Positions 1 to 15,754 of a DNA stretch of 15,754 bases are shown here, piece by piece. This stretch comes from Spirochaetaceae bacterium (GTDB taxonomy: Bacteria > Spirochaetota > Spirochaetia > Treponematales > Treponemataceae): positions 1 to 15,754 of the forward strand of contig JAITMZ010000022.1 in the NCBI GenBank assembly GCA_031290725.1. The letters are read 5' to 3'. Made by a program: the position numbers and the translations under genes. Position 1 is the first letter of the stretch; every line of letters begins with the position of its first letter. The notes beneath the pieces are model-generated. The model worked only from the letters and a program-made list of their open reading frames with translations. It had not been told where the DNA came from and ran no database searches.

Positions 1-669
1 AAAAGTGCGGGTCCGTTCGGGGAAGAAAAATTTGGGATCATAGTAATCCCGAACGATGGGATAGCGTTCCTGTTTAGTTTCCACCCGCAGCCCCACGTCG
101 ATGGTGTTGTCCGCGAAGGGAATGGACAGCTCCTTCATGAAGCGGCGTAAAAAATCGAAACCGTGTCTGCCGGGGGCCACGATAAGGTTGCCGTAGGACA
201 CCTCGCGCTTTGTGGTCACCGCCACCCGCTCTTTTTCCTGTGCCGTCACCAGGGATTCGTGGAAGGCAATCTCCACCTGTTTTTTCGTCAGGTCCGCGGT
301 GAGTTTTTTTATCAGCCGGATGCCCCCGTCGGTACCCAGATGGGACTGACGGATTCGCAGAAGTCTCACGTCGATCCGTTCGGCCCGTTTGGTGTAGATG
401 TCCAGGTTGGCCTGTTTTAAAATCTGGGGGCAGAGAAATTCTTCGATGCGCGTCAGGTACCGGGCGGCCTGGTTTTCGGTCCAGTATTCCAGGGGAAATC
501 CCACCGGAAAGGTGAAGTTCATCTTGCAGTCGTTACGAAGCCCCCCAGCGGATATGTCCGCACTTTCCAGTATCAACAGCCTGGCATCGGCCTTTTTTTC
601 CAGGATGGCAAAGGCTGCGCCCAATCCTGCGGGGCCTGACCCAACGATCACACAGTCAAAGTGTTCCAT
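1..669 (-). CDS. FAD/NAD(P)-dependent oxidoreductase, COG2509-like, N-terminal part (C-terminus beyond window)
   Basis: The reading frame stays open to the left edge, giving the first 223 residues of a flavoprotein. The start of the protein shows a Rossmann dinucleotide-binding motif, GSGPAG at residues 10-15, with the acidic end of beta-2 at E35 (LILES). A second nucleotide-associated segment, APGRHG, lies near 165-170. Near the cut end the run YDPKF followed by TRTF resembles the uncharacterised FAD-dependent dehydrogenase family COG2509; this assignment is from memory of the family and the substrate is unknown. The start at 669 is chosen because a TATACT hexamer sits exactly six bases upstream and there is no Shine-Dalgarno site. 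The gene lies 14 bases after the TPR-protein stop, so it may also be read through from that operon. Flavoprotein call is secure, subfamily moderately so. Confidence 0.85.
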   Translation of the reverse strand, partial: MEHFDCVIVGSGPAGLGAAFAILEKKADARLLILESADISAGGLRNDCKMNFTFPVGFPLEYWTENQAARYLTRIEEFLCPQILKQANLDIYTKRAERIDVRLLRIRQSHLGTDGGIRLIKKLTADLTKKQVEIAFHESLVTAQEKERVAVTTKREVSYGNLIVAPGRHGFDFLRRFMKELSIPFADNTIDVGLRVETKQERYPIVRDYYDPKFFFPERTRTF

Positions 670-675
670 GGAATC

Positions 676-704
676 AGTATACCCTACCATACGGATTTAA
701 GCAA
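676..704 (-). promoter_or_regulatory. sigma70-like promoter of the flavoprotein gene, leaderless type
   Basis: Read on the minus strand: -35 TTGCTT (699-704), 17-base spacer, -10 TATACT (676-681), then six bases GATTCC and the ATG at 669. The predicted +1 is the first base of the start codon. The promoter lies in the last codons of the upstream TPR gene. The -35 is weak; the -10 and spacing are good. Confidence 0.55.
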
Positions 705-3667: not shown

Positions 3668-4153
3668 CTACCCCGGAGATATTATATGATAGTCCGAAAA
3701 TAATTGCAATAGCGTTTCCTGGATTTTCAGCATGGACGCCTCTTCCGCGCCCTCTCCCAGCACCGCGCCCCCGTGGTCGTGGCCCGCCAGATGCAGCACC
3801 CCATGCACCAGAAGCCGCTTGAGCTCCTCGTCCCGGCTCACCGCGAACTCCGCCGCATGGGATGCCAGGGTATCCAGGCTGATGACGATGTCCCCGGCAT
3901 TATACCAGCAGACACCGTCATCTCCGGTGTAGGTCTCACCCAGGGCGAAGGAGAGCACATCCGTGGGGCCTTCCACGCCGCGGTATCGCGAATTGAGGCC
4001 CGCGATGAAAGGGTCGTCACAAAAAAGCACCGACACTTCCCACCCGGTTATCCCCTGGTGGTACAGCACCCCGGCAATAAATTTCCTGACAGCGGCACCG
4101 GACAGACCCGGGGTACTCGGTAACAAATGGGTTACGGCTATTCGATTTTTCAT
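3668..4153 (-). CDS. ybeY: endoribonuclease YbeY / rRNA maturation factor
   Basis: A 161-residue protein of the UPF0054/YbeY family, a zinc metalloprotein needed for 16S rRNA 3'-end maturation and ribosome quality control. The metal-binding motif is complete: HGVLHLAGHDH at residues 117-127, with the three histidines H117, H121 and H127. The upstream family motif TDVLSF is at 64-69, followed by GDIVIS at 87-92. Length is typical of the family. The pairing with a CorC/TlyC gene downstream is the widespread bacterial arrangement. The start has no Shine-Dalgarno site and sits only about 11 bases from a possible -10, so the leader may be very short. C125 of the usual GYDH/GHDH form is histidine here, which is common. 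Confidence 0.97.
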   Translation of the reverse strand: MKNRIAVTHLLPSTPGLSGAAVRKFIAGVLYHQGITGWEVSVLFCDDPFIAGLNSRYRGVEGPTDVLSFALGETYTGDDGVCWYNAGDIVISLDTLASHAAEFAVSRDEELKRLLVHGVLHLAGHDHGGAVLGEGAEEASMLKIQETLLQLFSDYHIISPG

Positions 4154-4164
4154 CGAATAAGGGT

Positions 4165-4194
4165 ACCATAAAAACGTACAAAAAAAGCGTACAA
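4165..4194 (-). promoter_or_regulatory. possible promoter of ybeY
   Basis: Minus strand: TTGTAC (4189-4194), 18-base T-rich spacer, TATGGT (4165-4170). The predicted start of transcription is about five bases before the ATG at 4153. The match is moderate. The rest of 4154-4254 holds only a weak C/G-rich hairpin (about 4212-4229) after the barrel gene, with no T-run directly following. Confidence 0.4.
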
Positions 4195-5538: not shown

Positions 5539-6227
5539 ATTATTTCTCCCAAAATTTCATTGATCGGGCCGCCAAAGGTATCCGACCCGCGCAGTCCCTG
5601 CGCCGCAGCCCAAATAAAGTTTCTTATACCCATACCTGCGGTGGGTGCGCCGCTCCAGCCATCAGAATAGTCTTCCATCGTGTCATCGCCCATGTCGGCG
5701 ATAACCAGGGTGGCGAAGAGGAGCACCAGATCGCTTTCGTTCACCGAGGCCAGAAAATCACTGCTGAAGGCATTGTTGGACAAAGCGGAATCCAGGACGA
5801 TTTTCAGTTCGCCGCTGATTTCGTCCACGTGATTACCCTTCGCGGAGGCCTTTATGGTGTCCAGAAGGTCTTCCACTGTAGTTTTTGTCGTGTCCTTCGC
5901 GATAAGCCCCACGTTTTCCAGTATCAACTTTGAGATTCCGGAGCCTTGGTTGGCCGCCCGTACCGCCGTGACCTGCAACGCCGGGCTCCAGCCCCCCCCT
6001 CCCATGCCTGCAATTTTTGCCAGGATCGTCCGGGACAACTCCGGGTCGCCCCTTGCGGCCCTCACCAGCGCCGCCGCATTGGAGGACGTCACCTTTACCT
6101 TGCTGGGGTCCCGTTTGGCCCCTTCGCCCCAGGAACTGGTAAAAAACTCGGTACAGGACGACAACATCACCACCCCTATCCCCAAAACAAAGAGGATTTG
6201 CATTATTTTTCCACGCTTCTTTAACAT
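5535..6227 (-). CDS. lipoprotein of unknown function, coupled to the FadL-like barrel
   Basis: A 230-residue protein starting MLKKRGK, with a hydrophobic segment and the lipobox LSSC, so the acylated cysteine is C25. An in-frame ATG at 6239 is longer by four codons, but the GGGAG that would serve as ribosome-binding site for the 6227 ATG (five-base spacing) lies inside that extension, so 6227 is preferred. The mature part is Ala/Ser/Leu-rich and probably helical, with a glycine run (GMGGGGW) encoded by a tract of eight G. I recognise no domain. The gene starts a two-gene operon with the outer-membrane barrel that follows, overlapping it by four bases, which suggests a joint role at the outer membrane. 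Confidence 0.82.
   Translation of the reverse strand: MLKKRGKIMQILFVLGIGVVMLSSCTEFFTSSWGEGAKRDPSKVKVTSSNAAALVRAARGDPELSRTILAKIAGMGGGGWSPALQVTAVRAANQGSGISKLILENVGLIAKDTTKTTVEDLLDTIKASAKGNHVDEISGELKIVLDSALSNNAFSSDFLASVNESDLVLLFATLVIADMGDDTMEDYSDGWSGAPTAGMGIRNFIWAAAQGLRGSDTFGGPINEILGEII
5992..5999 (-). repeat. poly-G tract (8 G on the coding strand) inside the lipoprotein gene
   Basis: Eight consecutive C on the plus strand, G8 in the coding direction, encode part of the GGGG run of the lipoprotein. G tracts of this size are prone to slippage, and poly-G tracts are known to vary in length in Treponema pallidum. Confidence 0.6.
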
Positions 6228-6337: not shown

Positions 6338-6366
6338 TGGACTTTTTTTAGAAAAATCAGTATACT
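6338..6366 (+). promoter_or_regulatory. sigma70-like promoter of the TPR-like lipoprotein operon, leaderless type
   Basis: -35 TGGACT (6338-6343), 17-base spacer, -10 TATACT (6361-6366), then GAAACC and the ATG at 6373. The predicted +1 is the A of the start codon. Together with the minus-strand promoter at 6271-6299 it makes a compact divergent promoter region. Confidence 0.65.
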
Positions 6367-6372
6367 GAAACC

Positions 6373-7410
6373 ATGTGTGTGAAAAAAGCAGGCTGGCTGT
6401 TTCTCGTCCCTGTGCTGCTTCTGTGTTCCTGTGGCGAACGAGGCCGCCAGGTTACCGTTAAAAATAACAATGCCTATTTAACCTCGATTTTGCAGAAACG
6501 AGACTTGGACATCGAAAGCCGCTACACCGCCATGAACACCATGGCCGGCAACCTGTTCGCCGCCAGGGATTACACCCGGTTGATACTGTTTTTGACCGAT
6601 CATGTAGAAAAATCCCCGGATGACGAATTTAACGCCTATTGGCTCCTGCTGACCGCTTATGCCTATCTGGAAACCGATTCCAGCCCGGTGGCGGAATACT
6701 ACTTCGACCGAATTATCAAAACCTGCGGGGATCTTCAGGTGAAGGGCGAATCGCTGCACTTTATCTGCCTGCGAAACCTGGTAAAAATCAGTAACAGTCC
6801 GCAGAACCGCATCGCTTATTTCGACGAGCTGATCCGCCGGTTTCCGGACAAAATTCGTGCCGCCGAGCTATACTTTCATCTGGCCAGGGAATACGAAAAG
6901 CTGGGGGAATGGGACATGGCGCTCAAGACCTACGCCCTTTTTGCCAGCCTGCCCGGCGCCGCGGATATACAGATCCCCGGCATTTCCGACCCCTATCGCT
7001 ACGCCCGGAACCTGATCACCTTCAATGAATCCTCCAAAAACCGGACCTTTCACAGTCTGGACGAGCTTGCGGAAGCGGTGAAGATGGCTCTGGCGAACTA
7101 CAACTACGCCGCCCTGGACCGCTATCGTTCCGGCGTGAACTTTTTCGCTATGTCCTGGAAACAGGACGAAAACGACACCAACAGCCAGCGGACATTCTAC
7201 ATCCGTACTTTTATGATGGGCCGAACCATCCATTTTTCTCAGGAGCTGGACGAATCCTCTAATCCCAACGAGGCGTACCTGCGCACCTGGGGCTGGAGCC
7301 AGCAGAACACGGCGTGGTATTTTTACTTCAGGAAGATAAATTTTCCTGTGGACCCGGAAATTCACGGTAAATGGGAATGGGCGGGCATATATTTTGGAGA
7401 AAAATTGTGA
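6373..7410 (+). CDS. TPR-like helical lipoprotein
   Basis: A 345-residue lipoprotein. The leader MCVKKAGWLFLVPVLL ends in the lipobox LCSC, so C20 is the probable acylated cysteine. Residues about 45-200 carry repeated helical pairs of TPR character (for example ELYFHLAREYEKLGEWDMALKTY at about 160). The C-terminal ~120 residues are rich in Trp, Phe and Tyr and look like a separate compact domain; I do not recognise it. No Shine-Dalgarno site precedes the ATG, which lies six bases after a -10 hexamer. A GTG two codons in is the only nearby alternative. The gene is first in an operon with an MltD-type transglycosylase and an OmpA-C protein, so a role in peptidoglycan or outer-membrane organisation is inferred. 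Confidence 0.85.
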   Translation: MCVKKAGWLFLVPVLLLCSCGERGRQVTVKNNNAYLTSILQKRDLDIESRYTAMNTMAGNLFAARDYTRLILFLTDHVEKSPDDEFNAYWLLLTAYAYLETDSSPVAEYYFDRIIKTCGDLQVKGESLHFICLRNLVKISNSPQNRIAYFDELIRRFPDKIRAAELYFHLAREYEKLGEWDMALKTYALFASLPGAADIQIPGISDPYRYARNLITFNESSKNRTFHSLDELAEAVKMALANYNYAALDRYRSGVNFFAMSWKQDENDTNSQRTFYIRTFMMGRTIHFSQELDESSNPNEAYLRTWGWSQQNTAWYFYFRKINFPVDPEIHGKWEWAGIYFGEKL

Positions 7411-8355: not shown

Positions 8356-9720
8356 ATGCGAAGCCCAGTTGTTTTGTGTGTTTCCCTGACGGCGATTCTC
8401 TTTTCGCTGCCGGCGGCGCTATTCGCGGGGATCTTCGACAGCGGCGCCCTGTCTGCCGCCAGTTTCATCGACTGGACGCAGCATACCCTCACGTCTGATC
8501 TGTCCCTGGATATGCGGGCGGCGGGGCTTGCCATGCCTGCGGGAAAAAATTCCGCCCGGGCCGCCGTCATCAGCCGGATACCCGCGCTGCTCAAGGATGC
8601 GGTGCTGTCCACCAATGTGGATTCGGAGACCCAGCTTGGGGATATGGTTAGCCGGCGGGGACTGAATCTGGAAGACATATCCCAGATCATCGACAGCGGG
8701 AAACAATCCGTGGGGCACTTCAGCCTGGATGGAAATACCTTTTTCATAACCCACCGGCTGAATCTGGAATCCCTGTACACTCCTCTGGTGCGGCACCGGG
8801 TGCCCTACACCCCTAAAACGCCCCTGGAGCAGACCGCCACCCGTCCTTACACCGGCATCCTCATCGACGCGCGGGGAATGTTGCCGGTTCAGGGAGAATT
8901 CATCAGCGCCCGGGGGGAAGCCTGCTTTTTTCCAAAAATTTGGGACGAAACCATGGATTTGCTCTACGAGCGGGGCATGATGGACGTGGAAGGGGCGAAA
9001 AAAAACGGCATCGCGGGATATGATTATTCCAGCGATGAAGGGCGATACCGAAGCCGCATCGGAGCAAATCCCCTCAGAATTATCGCACGGAAAATTTTCG
9101 GGCTGAACCACACTGACCCGGTAATATCCCGGGAAGACGCCCTGAAGATACTGTCGTCTTCGGAAAATCTCACGCTCCTGGAAAACGGACGCATCGTGAT
9201 CTTGCTGGACGAGGATATACTGCGGCATCCTGTCGCGGTAGCGGACAAGGACATGAATTACTGGGTCAACTACGGTAAAATGCGGGACCGCCTGCTGGAG
9301 GTAACCCCGCCGGTGATCCCCGAAGATACCCATCGGGGCATCGAAATATCCATCCAGGAACTCAAATTTCTGCCCAACCTGACGGAACTGCTCCCGGAAG
9401 AACGGGAACGGCTGAGCATCATCGCCGACACGCTGCGTCCCTTTATCGGCGACGACTATACCATCCGGGTGGATGGCCACACCGCGGATATCGGCGAGCC
9501 GGGAGCGGAGATGAACCTGTCGCTGCAGCGTGCGGAGACGGTGGTACGGGAGATGGCGGCCAGAGGAATTCCCCTGGAGCTTTTTACCTGGCAGGGCCAC
9601 GGCGGCACCCGGCCGCTTTTTGACAACACCCCGGCGGAGGGCAGGTCGCAAAATCGCCGGGTGACCATCCTGGTGGGCCCCCGTACCATCCAGGAGCGCC
9701 GAAATTGGGGTGGAGACTAA
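8356..9720 (+). CDS. OmpA-C domain protein with LPP20/FlgP-like central segment
   Basis: A 454-residue exported protein with a Sec signal peptide (residues 1-24, ending LFAG). Residues about 329-440 are an OmpA-like peptidoglycan-binding domain: TIRVDGHTA (369-377), LSLQRAETV (388-396) and QNRRVTI (432-438). Residues about 165-290 begin TGILIDARG and resemble the LPP20/FlgP family, which typically carries a G-(L/V)-(V/I)-x-D-A-R-G motif; this is a likeness by eye. Residues 45-150 are less recognisable. The ATG is one base after the transglycosylase stop (TAA-T-ATG), with no clear Shine-Dalgarno site, so it is probably coupled. Likely tethers the outer membrane or an envelope complex to peptidoglycan. 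Confidence 0.88.
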   Translation: MRSPVVLCVSLTAILFSLPAALFAGIFDSGALSAASFIDWTQHTLTSDLSLDMRAAGLAMPAGKNSARAAVISRIPALLKDAVLSTNVDSETQLGDMVSRRGLNLEDISQIIDSGKQSVGHFSLDGNTFFITHRLNLESLYTPLVRHRVPYTPKTPLEQTATRPYTGILIDARGMLPVQGEFISARGEACFFPKIWDETMDLLYERGMMDVEGAKKNGIAGYDYSSDEGRYRSRIGANPLRIIARKIFGLNHTDPVISREDALKILSSSENLTLLENGRIVILLDEDILRHPVAVADKDMNYWVNYGKMRDRLLEVTPPVIPEDTHRGIEISIQELKFLPNLTELLPEERERLSIIADTLRPFIGDDYTIRVDGHTADIGEPGAEMNLSLQRAETVVREMAARGIPLELFTWQGHGGTRPLFDNTPAEGRSQNRRVTILVGPRTIQERRNWGGD

Positions 9721-9725
9721 TCGGG

Positions 9726-9754
9726 TTGACAGAAATGTACCGCATCGATACAAT
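9726..9754 (+). promoter_or_regulatory. near-consensus sigma70-like promoter, leaderless type
   Basis: -35 TTGACA (9726-9731, perfect), 17-base spacer, -10 TACAAT (9749-9754, five of six), then ACCGGT and the ATG at 9761. It begins six bases after the stop of the OmpA-C gene. The predicted +1 is the A of the start codon. Confidence 0.8.
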
Positions 9755-9760
9755 ACCGGT

Positions 9761-10669
9761 ATGATCGCGGTGGACAGGTATGTAAAACAATGCCGGGGCA
9801 TCGGCATATGTGCGGCGCTTATTTTGGTCGCTGTGGCGCTGCCCGCAGAGACAGCTTTGTCAACTTCCTTTGCATTTCCCGGCGCGATCACCTTCCTGCA
9901 GCGCAGCCGGGGTTCCACTCCCTGGCTGTATCCCCGGCCCCGTATGCCCAGCTCTTGGGACGGCCGCACCTATCACCTGTATATGGGTGTGCGGGGCGGG
10001 ATGGGTCTGCCAACTCTGGAAGGCAAATCCCTCCTCGCAAACGAATATAACTCTAATTTTTCCATAATGACGGAGACAGGTTTCGTTTTTGGCCTGCATT
10101 TTTTTATTCCGGTTTATAGGTTTTTCGCCTTCCAACTGGAGGGGAACTATGAAAATCCGGGAACAAGCACGTGGGCCCGTGATGGCGGCCAAAGTGTTGT
10201 TTTGGGAAAAACCGGTGGAGACGAAAAAAGCGGTTCCCTGCTGACAATTCCGCTCCTCCTGGTGCTGCCCCTGGAGTCTTCCGGCAAGTACCTGCACCTT
10301 TTTGGCGGGGGATACGTGAGTCTGCCTCTGGAAGTACAGTCCTACTCCATAAAAGGAGACGATGACGTGCAGGTTACATCGGGAGAAGTGACCCTGAGTC
10401 CAGTTTTCGGGTGGACGGTGGGATTGCGGGTCGGGTTTCGGTACAAAAAATTCAGCCCTTTCCTGGACGGCCGGTATAGCCGCGACCTGAACGCCTTCAC
10501 CGGATCCGGGGTTGCGGGCAGCTCCGGCGAGCTCTATCGGCGGGACATCATTTTTCTGTCTCTGGGGGTGGAGGTAGGACTCATCCGCTGGCGGGTGAGG
10601 CGGCCCAACCCTCCCGCCAATGCCACACCGGCTTCGTCAGGGCGCTCGGGAAAGGCTCTGGGCGCGTGA
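9761..10669 (+). CDS. outer-membrane beta-barrel protein (OMP_b-brl-like)
   Basis: A 302-residue exported protein. The signal sequence runs to about residue 28 (LILVAVALPAE). The mature part has about eight amphipathic strands ending in aromatic residues (for example YHLYMGVRGGMGL, FFAFQLEGNYEN, YLHLFGGGYVSLPLEV, GWTVGLRVGFRYKKFSPFLDGRYSRDL), consistent with the small outer-membrane beta-barrel superfamily. The start is set at 9761: an ATG at 9710 lies inside the OmpA-C gene, would place polar residues before the signal peptide, and is upstream of the promoter. The last ~25 residues (after RWRVRR) are a low-complexity Pro/Ala/Ser tail encoded within the 89-bp overlap with the convergent radical SAM gene. 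Ligand or function unknown. Confidence 0.82.
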   Translation: MIAVDRYVKQCRGIGICAALILVAVALPAETALSTSFAFPGAITFLQRSRGSTPWLYPRPRMPSSWDGRTYHLYMGVRGGMGLPTLEGKSLLANEYNSNFSIMTETGFVFGLHFFIPVYRFFAFQLEGNYENPGTSTWARDGGQSVVLGKTGGDEKSGSLLTIPLLLVLPLESSGKYLHLFGGGYVSLPLEVQSYSIKGDDDVQVTSGEVTLSPVFGWTVGLRVGFRYKKFSPFLDGRYSRDLNAFTGSGVAGSSGELYRRDIIFLSLGVEVGLIRWRVRRPNPPANATPASSGRSGKALGA

Positions 10670-11561
10670 AGTCCGGGAGCCACTCCTTGCCGGCCCCCAA
10701 TTCCTGATAATAGAGATGCGCGAAGTCGTATGCCTCCAGCAGGTCCGTAATGTCCCCATATTCCTCCGGGGAGACGGCCCGCAGGGGCACCGCACCCCCC
10801 GCCGTGGAGGCACCCTGGCTCAGCGCCGGTATCGGAGTGAACTGGGTCATCACCGAGACGATTGCCCGGTCGTCGACCCGACCCTTGAGCCAATCCAGTA
10901 CGGCGGCGGTGTCTTCCAGCCGACTGGGCAGCGCCAGATGCCGCACCACCACCCCGGACAACAGGTTTCCCACCGGGTCGAACTGAAGCGGTGCGCGGGC
11001 AACACACCATCGAATCGCTTCTTTCGCCGTTTCCGGGTAGTCCGCCGCCGCGAAGAAAGCCGCGCTCACCGAGGGGTTCAGGGTTTTCAAGTCCGGCAGC
11101 CAAATGTCCACCACCTCCGCCAGCAGGGTGAGCATCTCCGTGGTTTCGTAGGCCGATGAGTTCCAGCACACCGGGATTGTCAGGGATGCGCTTTTTGCCG
11201 CCGCCAGGTAGTCCGCCAGCACCGGGACGGCGTGGCTTCCCGTCACCAGGTTGATGTTCTGTGCCCCCGCGTTTTGCAGAGTCAGACACAGGCGGACAAA
11301 ATCAGCCTGCGATACCGGGGCGCCCATGCCGCGCTGGGAAATCTGGTAGTTCTGACACTGGGCACAGCGCAGATTGCAGCCCGTGAGGAAAATCGTCCCA
11401 GACCCGCCGGTGCCGGTGAGGGGCGGCTCTTCGCCGAAGTGCAGCCCCGCCCAAGCGGCCCGGAGCGCCGCACCTTCGCCGCAGATGCCCGCCGCGCCGT
11501 TCCCACGAAGGGTGCCGCAGCACCGGGGACAACACGTACAGGGGGAATACAAAGCAGTCAT
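10581..11561 (-). CDS. PflX-like radical SAM protein (COG1313)
   Basis: A 326-residue iron-sulphur protein. Residues 62-69 are the radical SAM motif CNLRCAQC (C62, C66, C69), which binds the [4Fe-4S] cluster that splits S-adenosylmethionine. Ahead of it is a cysteine cluster C8, C11, C15, C27 in a CxxCPRxCG...GxCG pattern, typical of COG1313 'PflX' proteins related to pyruvate formate-lyase activases. The target of this family is not established. The start at 11561 is chosen because TATACT lies exactly six bases upstream and a longer in-frame ATG at 11627 is outside the promoter and adds 22 unrelated residues. The C-terminus (LPDF, VWHW) looks conserved and overlaps the convergent barrel gene by 89 bp. 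It stands alone, transcribed away from the lipoprotein/CNNM operon. Confidence 0.9.
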   Translation of the reverse strand: MTALYSPCTCCPRCCGTLRGNGAAGICGEGAALRAAWAGLHFGEEPPLTGTGGSGTIFLTGCNLRCAQCQNYQISQRGMGAPVSQADFVRLCLTLQNAGAQNINLVTGSHAVPVLADYLAAAKSASLTIPVCWNSSAYETTEMLTLLAEVVDIWLPDLKTLNPSVSAAFFAAADYPETAKEAIRWCVARAPLQFDPVGNLLSGVVVRHLALPSRLEDTAAVLDWLKGRVDDRAIVSVMTQFTPIPALSQGASTAGGAVPLRAVSPEEYGDITDLLEAYDFAHLYYQELGAGKEWLPDFTRPEPFPSALTKPVWHWREGWAASPASG

Positions 11562-11567
11562 GCCGGC

Positions 11568-11596
11568 AGTATAGCGCGGACATGCGAAAAATGCAA
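11568..11596 (-). promoter_or_regulatory. sigma70-like promoter of the radical SAM gene, leaderless type
   Basis: Minus strand: -35 TTGCAT (11591-11596), 17-base spacer, -10 TATACT (11568-11573), then GCCGGC and the ATG at 11561. The hexamers and spacing equal those of the divergent promoter at 11839-11867. Confidence 0.75.
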
Positions 11597-11838: not shown

Positions 11839-11867
11839 TTGCATATTTTTTTTAACTGTATTATACT
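11839..11867 (+). promoter_or_regulatory. sigma70-like promoter of the thioredoxin-fold lipoprotein/CNNM operon
   Basis: -35 TTGCAT (11839-11844), 17-base spacer, -10 TATACT (11862-11867). Predicted +1 near 11874, giving a leader of only about 11 bases that still holds AGGAG (11875-11879). Confidence 0.8.
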
Positions 11868-11884
11868 TTTGGCTAGGAGTAATG

Positions 11885-15234: not shown

Positions 15235-15263
15235 TTGACAGTAGCAAAATTACATGCTATACT
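15235..15263 (+). promoter_or_regulatory. near-consensus sigma70-like promoter of the TRAP binding-protein gene
   Basis: -35 TTGACA (15235-15240, perfect), 17-base spacer, extended -10 TGC-TATACT (-10 at 15258-15263). Predicted +1 near 15270, leader of about 69 bases. Confidence 0.88.
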
Positions 15264-15273
15264 TGTATACAAG
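15262..15273 (+). promoter_or_regulatory. 12-bp palindromic operator over the transcription start, GntR/FadR-type
   Basis: Perfect palindrome CTTGTATACAAG, spanning about -8 to +4. Regulators of the GntR family (FadR/FCD group) bind sites of the form T-GT-xx-AC-A, and such regulators often control TRAP transporters. Its place over the start site fits repression relieved by a ligand. No regulator gene is in the window. Confidence 0.6.
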
Positions 15274-15279
15274 ATAAGC

Positions 15280-15295
15280 GCGGGGATTGCCCCGC
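15280..15295 (+). promoter_or_regulatory. leader hairpin 1 of the TRAP gene
   Basis: GCGGGG (15280-15285), loop ATTG, CCCCGC (15290-15295): a six-pair all-GC stem about ten bases from the predicted transcript start. Confidence 0.5.
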
Positions 15296-15296
15296 A

Positions 15297-15311
15297 CCGG
15301 CAGTTTGCCGG
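15297..15311 (+). promoter_or_regulatory. leader hairpin 2 of the TRAP gene
   Basis: CCGGCA (15297-15302), loop GTT, TGCCGG (15306-15311): a six-pair stem one base after hairpin 1. No T-run follows, so it does not look like an attenuator terminator. Confidence 0.5.
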
Positions 15312-15326
15312 ATATGAGTTTATGGT

Positions 15327-15334
15327 AAGGAGAG
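15327..15334 (+). promoter_or_regulatory. strong ribosome-binding site of the TRAP gene
   Basis: AAGGAGAG with the SD core AAGGAG at 15327-15332, six bases before the ATG at 15339; the best Shine-Dalgarno site in the window. Confidence 0.75.
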
Positions 15335-15338
15335 TTCT

Positions 15339-15754
15339 ATGAAAAAAACTCTATTGGTAGCGGCGATGACGCTTGCGGTGGTCCTGATGGGATGCCAAAA
15401 AAAAGAAAGTGCGGCAAGCGCACCTGCAGCAGCGGCTCCGGCGCAAAAATTCGCCCTCAGCATTTCACACATCGTGAATGAAGACAATTCCTGGCACAAG
15501 GCCAGCCTTTTCTTCAAGGAACAGGTGGAAAAGCAGTCCGGCGGCCGGATTGAGGTAAAAATTTACCCCAACAGCCAGATCGGCACGGAGATCGACGGGA
15601 TCAATTCCATCATTTCCAATGCCGGGGACGTGGATATCATCTTCACCGGTGAATCCCTCCAGAGCACCATCCCTGAGATGGGGGTCATCGGCGTGCCCTA
15701 CATGATCGCCGGCTACGACCACGAGAAAAAAGTGGTGGAAGGCCCCGTGGGCAA
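15339..15754 (+). CDS. TRAP transporter solute-binding protein, DctP family, lipoprotein (C-terminus beyond window)
   Basis: The first 138 residues of a binding protein for a tripartite ATP-independent periplasmic transporter, which uses ion gradients to take up organic acids or similar solutes. A lipoprotein leader ends in LMGC (C19), followed by an Ala/Pro-rich linker. The mature fold starts FALSISHIVNEDNSWHKA, then GRIEVKIYPNSQIGTEIDGI, GDVDIIFTG and VPYMIAGYDHEKKV, all in the order typical of DctP proteins. The frame is open at the right edge; membrane subunits are expected downstream. In T. pallidum a TRAP system is preceded by the TPR lipoprotein TatT (from memory); here the gene has its own promoter and no TatT directly upstream. 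Confidence 0.95.
   Translation, partial: MKKTLLVAAMTLAVVLMGCQKKESAASAPAAAAPAQKFALSISHIVNEDNSWHKASLFFKEQVEKQSGGRIEVKIYPNSQIGTEIDGINSIISNAGDVDIIFTGESLQSTIPEMGVIGVPYMIAGYDHEKKVVEGPVG

Follow-up and report, generated by a model that had tools for sequence, protein, structure and literature searches.

A stretch of 15,754 nucleotides from a Spirochaetaceae bacterium (the window) carries four genes in which a promoter −10 box lies six bases before the ATG, and these very probably exemplify a regular class of leaderless genes, built on ordinary housekeeping (sigma-70-type) promoters placed against the start codon. The position of the boxes, their promoter nature, the pyrimidine at −1, the specificity for ATG and the recurrence in relatives all emerge from sequence statistics. 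Leaderless starts would make up about a third of the recognisable promoters and about a tenth of the genes in the sampled part of the genome, and leaderless initiation looks unusually common in this uncultured treponeme.

The window is contig 95 of a genome bin that is 74% complete and has 1,337,817 bases in 213 contigs. Contigs picked by number (L021-L080; 60 of the 213, 377,517 bases, GC 0.558) served as an unbiased sample, kept separate from 20 further contigs of the bin that had been selected by motif. Start codons of the bin were assigned by a crude home-made caller from the coding score alone, and dinucleotide shuffles, Markov-shuffled sequence, reversed patterns and neighbouring gaps provided the null models. 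Judged by the HlyC-like protein of the window, its nearest named loci come from records of Treponema and Spirochaetaceae, gut bins in many cases, with identities of at most 83%.

All four sites consist of a TAYAMT hexamer exactly six bases before an ATG and a −35 hexamer at a spacer of 17, the whole sites spanning 9726-9763 (+), 6338-6375 (+), 704-667 (−) and 11596-11559 (−). They are given below with the genes they precede and, for contrast, with two genes having a Shine-Dalgarno site.

9726..9731 (+): −35 TTGACA, spacer of 17 to the −10
9749..9754 (+): −10 TACAAT, six bases (accggt, pyrimidine at −1) before the ATG at 9761-9763; score 7.9, lowest of the four
9761..10669 (+): outer-membrane beta-barrel gene (PF13568, E=1.7e-7; N-terminus signal-peptide-like by eye)
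6338..6343 (+): −35 TGGACT
6361..6366 (+): −10 TATACT, six bases before the ATG at 6373; model score 13.9
6373..7410 (+): lipoprotein-like gene (MCVKKAGWLFLVPVLLLCSCG, by eye) downstream of a putative leaderless promoter; no Pfam family matched
699..704 (−): −35 TTGCTT
676..681 (−): −10 TATACT, six bases before the ATG at 669; model score 20.1
1..669 (−): FAD/NAD-binding oxidoreductase gene, cut by the contig end, predicted leaderless start MEHFDCVIVGSGPAG (PF07992, E=1.3e-6, from residue 4)
11591..11596 (−): −35 TTGCAT
11568..11573 (−): −10 TATACT, six bases before the ATG at 11561; model score 17.2
10581..11561 (−): radical SAM protein gene, predicted leaderless start MTALYSPCTCCPRCC (PF04055, E=1.9e-9; the query had one extra upstream codon)
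15235..15341 (+): leadered gene, TTGACA-17-TATACT (−10 at 15258-15263), Shine-Dalgarno AAGGAG at 15327-15332, ATG at 15339; score 21.3
11862..11884 (+): TATACT at 11862-11867, Shine-Dalgarno AGGAG at 11875-11879, ATG at 11882; score 17.8

The initial annotation had described TTGACA, a 17-base spacer, TACAAT and six further bases leading to the ATG of the barrel gene, with no Shine-Dalgarno site before it, and had reported the same geometry at 669, 6373 and 11561. These observations stand: the coordinates at 9726-9731, 9749-9754 and 9761-9763 are exact, no Shine-Dalgarno site is seen before 9761, and spacer and gap are 17 and 6 at each of the other three genes, with poorer −35 hexamers (TGGACT at 6338, TTGCTT at 704, TTGCAT at 11596). 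The choice of 9726 as the best example holds if the E. coli consensus is the yardstick, but not under a model of the genome itself: a matrix trained on 33 sites from other contigs scores 669 at 20.1, 11561 at 17.2, 6373 at 13.9 and 9726 at 7.9, the weakest of the four and below the working cut-off of 11 (set with a sister matrix of the 33-site matrix). Within the window the pattern TAYAMT-N5-Y-ATG has four matches, exactly at these four genes, against a mean of 0.04 and a largest count of 1 in 200 dinucleotide shuffles. The longer pattern TTGACA-17-TATAMT-6-ATG with up to three mismatches has five, where shuffles reach 2 at most and 0.23 on average; the fifth match, at 15235, has no ATG there and is the promoter of the gene with the Shine-Dalgarno leader.

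The barrel gene at 9761 is itself probably leaderless. It may instead be read mainly as part of an operon from the upstream OmpA-family gene, with TACAAT being a chance occurrence or a minor promoter. This is the less likely reading. In its favour, the OmpA-family gene has the same direction, its stop codon ends at 9720, only 40 bases from 9761, and at a cut-off of 8, next to the headline score of 7.9, the model yields 187 matches in real and 44 in shuffled sequence. Against this operon reading, the perfect TTGACA, the spacer of 17, the gap of 6 and the pyrimidine at −1 all fit a leaderless start, and a read-through mRNA would present the ATG at 9761 with no visible Shine-Dalgarno site. A protein search with the barrel protein returned only itself, and the single remote match found among the 59 other genomes of the family sample yielded no comparative support for its start. 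As for the other genes, that at 6373 has a 59% orthologue in one of two congeners, the radical SAM gene has no match in the two congeners, and for the gene at 669 a longer open reading frame begins at 690, i.e. upstream of the −10 box. The spacer gattcc of the 669 site is found identically at G006:C182, which seems a coincidence, the G006 gene there matching a gene of contig L052 instead.

Two further places in the window may be recorded. At 4151-4165 (−), TACCCT lies six bases before the ATG of a gene that we take to be YbeY-like, with G at −1 and a promoter score below 8. At 6276-6225 (−), a strong promoter (score 19.9, TACACT) leads an open reading frame listed from 6239; a Shine-Dalgarno-like GGAG stands right behind that ATG, and the true start is therefore probably the ATG at 6227.

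In the whole bin TATACT-N6-ATG occurs 67 times, against one match of the reversed pattern. When TATACT is followed to the next ATGs in the 60 unselected contigs, a gap of 6 is found 17 times, a gap of 7 ten times and a gap of 9 eight times, with 0-7 occurrences at each of the other gaps up to 40; the ATG opens a long open reading frame (80 or more amino acids, or 40 or more if cut by the contig end) in 15/17 cases at gap 6 and 10/10 at gap 7. No TATACT peak at gaps 6-7 is seen in these contigs for GTG, TTG or ATC, and in this test of start-codon preference ATG alone is enriched. The smaller excess at gap 9 has a pyrimidine at −1 in only three of its eight sites in L021-L080.

The scan that the initial annotation had proposed, TANNNT gaps against shuffled upstream regions, was run on the same 60 of the 213 contigs and found the gap-6 enrichment: the box stands at gap 6 before 13 of the 159 ATG starts assigned by the crude caller, with 2.26 in shuffled upstream regions, and at gaps 6-7 before 22, with 4.49 in dinucleotide shuffles. 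Neither count was reached by any of 300 shuffles, and the TANNNT-led excess after subtraction of the shuffle mean is about 11% of the 159 starts. The claim of a regular leaderless class is thus strongly supported, with the amendment that the gap is not always six, seven being nearly as common (17 versus 10 for TATACT; 19 versus 15 for the promoter model described below). Loose TANNNT gap counts over all ATGs are too noisy to be used alone. TATAAT has no gap-6 peak in the bin; therefore the class is here one of TATACT.

That A+T-rich upstream regions and an abundance of boxes should have given this spacing by chance is next to impossible. TANNNT alone is common, but matches are much scarcer in shuffles, with the reversed pattern and at neighbouring gaps, and the sample has a GC content of 56%. 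Chance as the origin of the whole class is refuted by these controls, single sites excepted.

A logo was built from 45 sites, each a TATACT at gap 6 or 7 leading into an open reading frame of 60 or more amino acids, taken from all fetched contigs and the window, and the −35 region played no part in their selection. It displays TTG at a spacer of exactly 17 (T in 42, T in 36 and G in 36 of the 45), preceded by C in 30/45, and an extended TGTGN before the −10. A weight matrix derived from 23 training sites (window and the 20 motif-selected contigs), leaving out the spacer and the start codon, was then run on the 60 unseen contigs, where at a score of 11 it finds 111 promoters, against 14 in Markov-shuffled sequence. 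With their own −35 at the right spacing, and with a model that performs on unseen contigs, the boxes mark real promoters. As to what follows these 111 promoters, 34 are leaderless in layout, 45 are followed by a Shine-Dalgarno-led start and 32 by neither. Gaps to the ATG of a long open reading frame are 6 in 19 cases, 7 in 15, 8 in two and 9 in four; pooled, gaps of 0-5 account for four, of 10-29 for 20 and of 30-59 for 29. The distances from promoter to Shine-Dalgarno start range from 6 to 276, all except two being at least 19.

Some upstream regions are alike: a repeated stretch precedes three of the 34 leaderless model matches, and another pair agrees at 26/40 positions. A repeated promoter (aacc-cttgaca-gcgggg-like ... 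TATACT) precedes ATGs in L003, L027, L028, L064 and L069 (contigs 9, 102, 103, 179 and 184 of bin G000); in three of these five copies a contig end is no more than about 250 bases away and the N-termini are similar (MRSVNAL, MRSVSAL and MSTVSAL). The copies may be those of a cassette at which the assembly breaks.

A special sigma factor or regulon, in place of a general promoter, might be suspected from the predominance of TATACT over TATAAT. It is nevertheless very improbable, in that promoters without an abutting ATG carry the same hexamer (TATACT in 48/74, compared with 26/37 with the ATG) and the sampled leaderless genes are of mixed function. The same −10 with and without an abutting ATG therefore points to a general promoter in a different place. 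Pfam families were found in 17 of 20 leaderless genes scanned (of 34), and include adenylosuccinate synthetase, DNA polymerase III gamma/tau, glycine cleavage T, MoaA-like and RlmL-like proteins, two UvrD-type helicases, ABC transporters, a sulfate permease and peptidases. Since functions are so mixed, with many housekeeping genes (dnaX-, purA-, gcvT-, moaA- and rlmL-like), the sampled genes are not one regulon.

RNA polymerases prefer a pyrimidine at −1 and a purine at +1. The base before the ATG is a pyrimidine at 63/67 gap-6 sites of the bin and, in the unselected contigs, at 16/17 sites with gap 6 and 10/10 with gap 7, compared with 70 of the 113 ATGs led by a Shine-Dalgarno site and with 41% of the ATG triplets present in the full set of fetched contigs of the genome. 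Among 46 strong promoters without an abutting ATG, a pyrimidine-purine (YR) step falls on bases 6/7 after the box in 23, and in 4-16 at ten other positions, although over all 74 such promoters the lead of bases 6/7 is slight (26 versus 24 and 23). Transcription would thus start at the A of the ATG, as suggested by the −1 pyrimidine and, more weakly, by the YR steps at bases 6/7 of the other promoters.

Whether the abutting ATG is also used by the ribosome is a separate matter, as the promoters could be real and give short leaders, with translation beginning further down, at a codon that has a Shine-Dalgarno site of its own. Start predictions frequently err, and those for the bin are crude, yet such a reading is improbable. 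At the abutting position ATG alone is enriched, not GTG, TTG or ATC; it opens a long frame in 25/27 cases; and in five orthologue pairs the proteins align from residue 1 with the layout kept. Furthermore, four of the 20 leaderless genes encode proteins whose Pfam domain, counted from the predicted start, begins at residues 3-7, and the abutting ATG is therefore supported independently. The lack of Shine-Dalgarno sites (0/14 leaderless candidates, against 68/145 other starts) was dropped as evidence for the class because the position of the box itself mostly forces it: a TATACT placed artificially at gap 6 or 7 of the 145 other starts left only five or none with a Shine-Dalgarno site. The 3′ end of the 16S rRNA has an intact anti-Shine-Dalgarno sequence; therefore, both initiation routes should work.

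Taken in order, the preferred leaderless scheme would run as follows. The promoter would comprise a −35 (C)TTG(A/C)NN, a 17-base spacer ending in TGTGN and a −10 TATACT, with the A of the start codon as the seventh or eighth base after the −10. RNA polymerase would initiate on that A, aided by the pyrimidine at −1 (a YR initiator), giving an mRNA that starts 5′-AUG, the −10 box occupying the usual place of the Shine-Dalgarno site, and the ribosome would begin directly at the 5′-terminal AUG. The same promoter would serve many other genes with a Shine-Dalgarno leader. In this scheme, the actual 5′ end of the RNA and initiation on a bare AUG are what we infer from the sequence.

The layout recurs in relatives. 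TATACT-N6/7-ATG is found 63 and 79 times in two congeners, against nine and 14 reversed matches, respectively. In one of them (G026), the same sixteen bases TATACTCCCTCGCATG recur in contigs 59, 71, 105, 106 and 134; the two copies inspected open into different reading frames, and a repeated promoter-plus-start cassette therefore seems likely there. Over 296 genomes of the phylum, the strict pattern TTG-N20-TATAMT-N5-Y-ATG was compared with a control. The bin has 45 matches versus 0 (33.6 per Mb) and the 49 other genomes of the family 740 versus 24, with 48/49 above control and a median of 5.4 per Mb; the small family member G020 has none. Family f3 (seven genomes) has 157 versus 2, of which 100 in the 3.1 Mb of G185, a member of the same order with nearly the density of the bin, the six other f3 genomes having 5-13. 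Families f2 and f4 (four genomes) have seven versus 0, and f6 (32 genomes) six against 20 in the control, i.e. 0.14 per Mb and below control. High counts are also found outside the taxonomic class, for instance in G103 (36 versus 0), G194 (34 versus 1) and G210 (29 versus 0); the leaderless class therefore extends beyond Treponemataceae.

A sample of G185 (231,941 bases) has the peak at gaps 6-7, the −1 pyrimidine and the spacer of 17, and in 80 named loci (1,340,380 bases) TATANT with a −1 pyrimidine occurs at gap 6 28 times, with about 3.9 expected from farther positions. For the orthologue test, a small one, 56 candidates were queried and 11 pairs passed the filter. TANNNT at gap 6 or 7 is kept in six of the 11, two of these six being TATACT sites on stretches fetched for TATACT matches. 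The five pairs without the layout comprise three Shine-Dalgarno starts (two of them remote, at 34% and 26%), the window gene at 6373, whose orthologue is ambiguous, and one chance site, this last a box inside a conserved coding region that was rejected as a leaderless start.

Leaderless genes with a −10 box adjoining the start codon are known from Deinococcus and mycobacteria; the arrangement is common to both these and the present genome, the phyla being different and the share of genes larger there. Zheng et al. 2011 (PMC3160421) defined leaderless bacterial genes by TANNNT about 12 bases before the start, significant against dinucleotide shuffles, and the genes described here resemble their TA-led genes in the position of the box and in exceeding shuffles. 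They reported six of 18 Spirochaetes genomes as positive, with a mean of 3.9% (1.8-6.9) of genes, the species not being named in the main text, whereas here the class would amount to about a tenth of ATG starts, with a TATACT −10, a sharp −35 at a spacer of 17 and a −1 pyrimidine. In Leptospira interrogans, of the same phylum, dRNA-seq mapped about 440 genes to start sites no more than 10 bases from the start codon, the distance being less than 2 in about half of these (PMC5243855). Start sites were mapped there and are deduced from sequence here; the account of the Leptospira leaderless genes gives no common motif except sigma-54 (PMC5243855), unlike the sharp −35 and −10 of the present class. 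For Borrelia burgdorferi, a single sentence states that leaderless mRNAs are frequent (PMC10618245). In Nakagawa 2017 (PMC5397173), six Spirochaetes have a mean of −3.25 on a component whose positive values are read as a leaderless or S1 signal, so that, as far as that figure goes, no phylum-wide leaderless signal is indicated.

The view of the initial annotation that such a class is not well described in spirochaetes must accordingly be narrowed in the light of the Zheng genomes, the Leptospira mapping and the Borrelia remark. For Treponema, a search of the open-access literature turned up no report of leaderless mRNA; of two candidate reports, PMC9200625 uses the word of peptides and PMC12687308 has it in a reference title. 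What is new here is a predicted dense leaderless class in Treponemataceae, with its extremes in this genus and a few further lineages of spirochaetes, and it is a known way of starting genes, not a new mechanism.

The chances are about even that leaderless initiation is an old, general second start route in Treponemataceae, expanded several-fold in this genus and independently in the G185 lineage, with the −1 pyrimidine selected, locking RNA polymerase onto the A of the ATG, and the layout kept while the surrounding sequence turns over. Gene callers modelling leaderless transcription reportedly exist, Lomsadze's of 2018 among them. Where a caller depends on Shine-Dalgarno sites, about a tenth of the starts in such genomes may be misplaced, and the −1 pyrimidine is a simple mark by which leaderless starts may be called from sequence alone. 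The range of strict-match densities within one taxonomic class (33.6 per Mb in the bin, a median of 5.4 in its family and 0.14 in f6) offers a natural series for the gain and loss of leaderless initiation.
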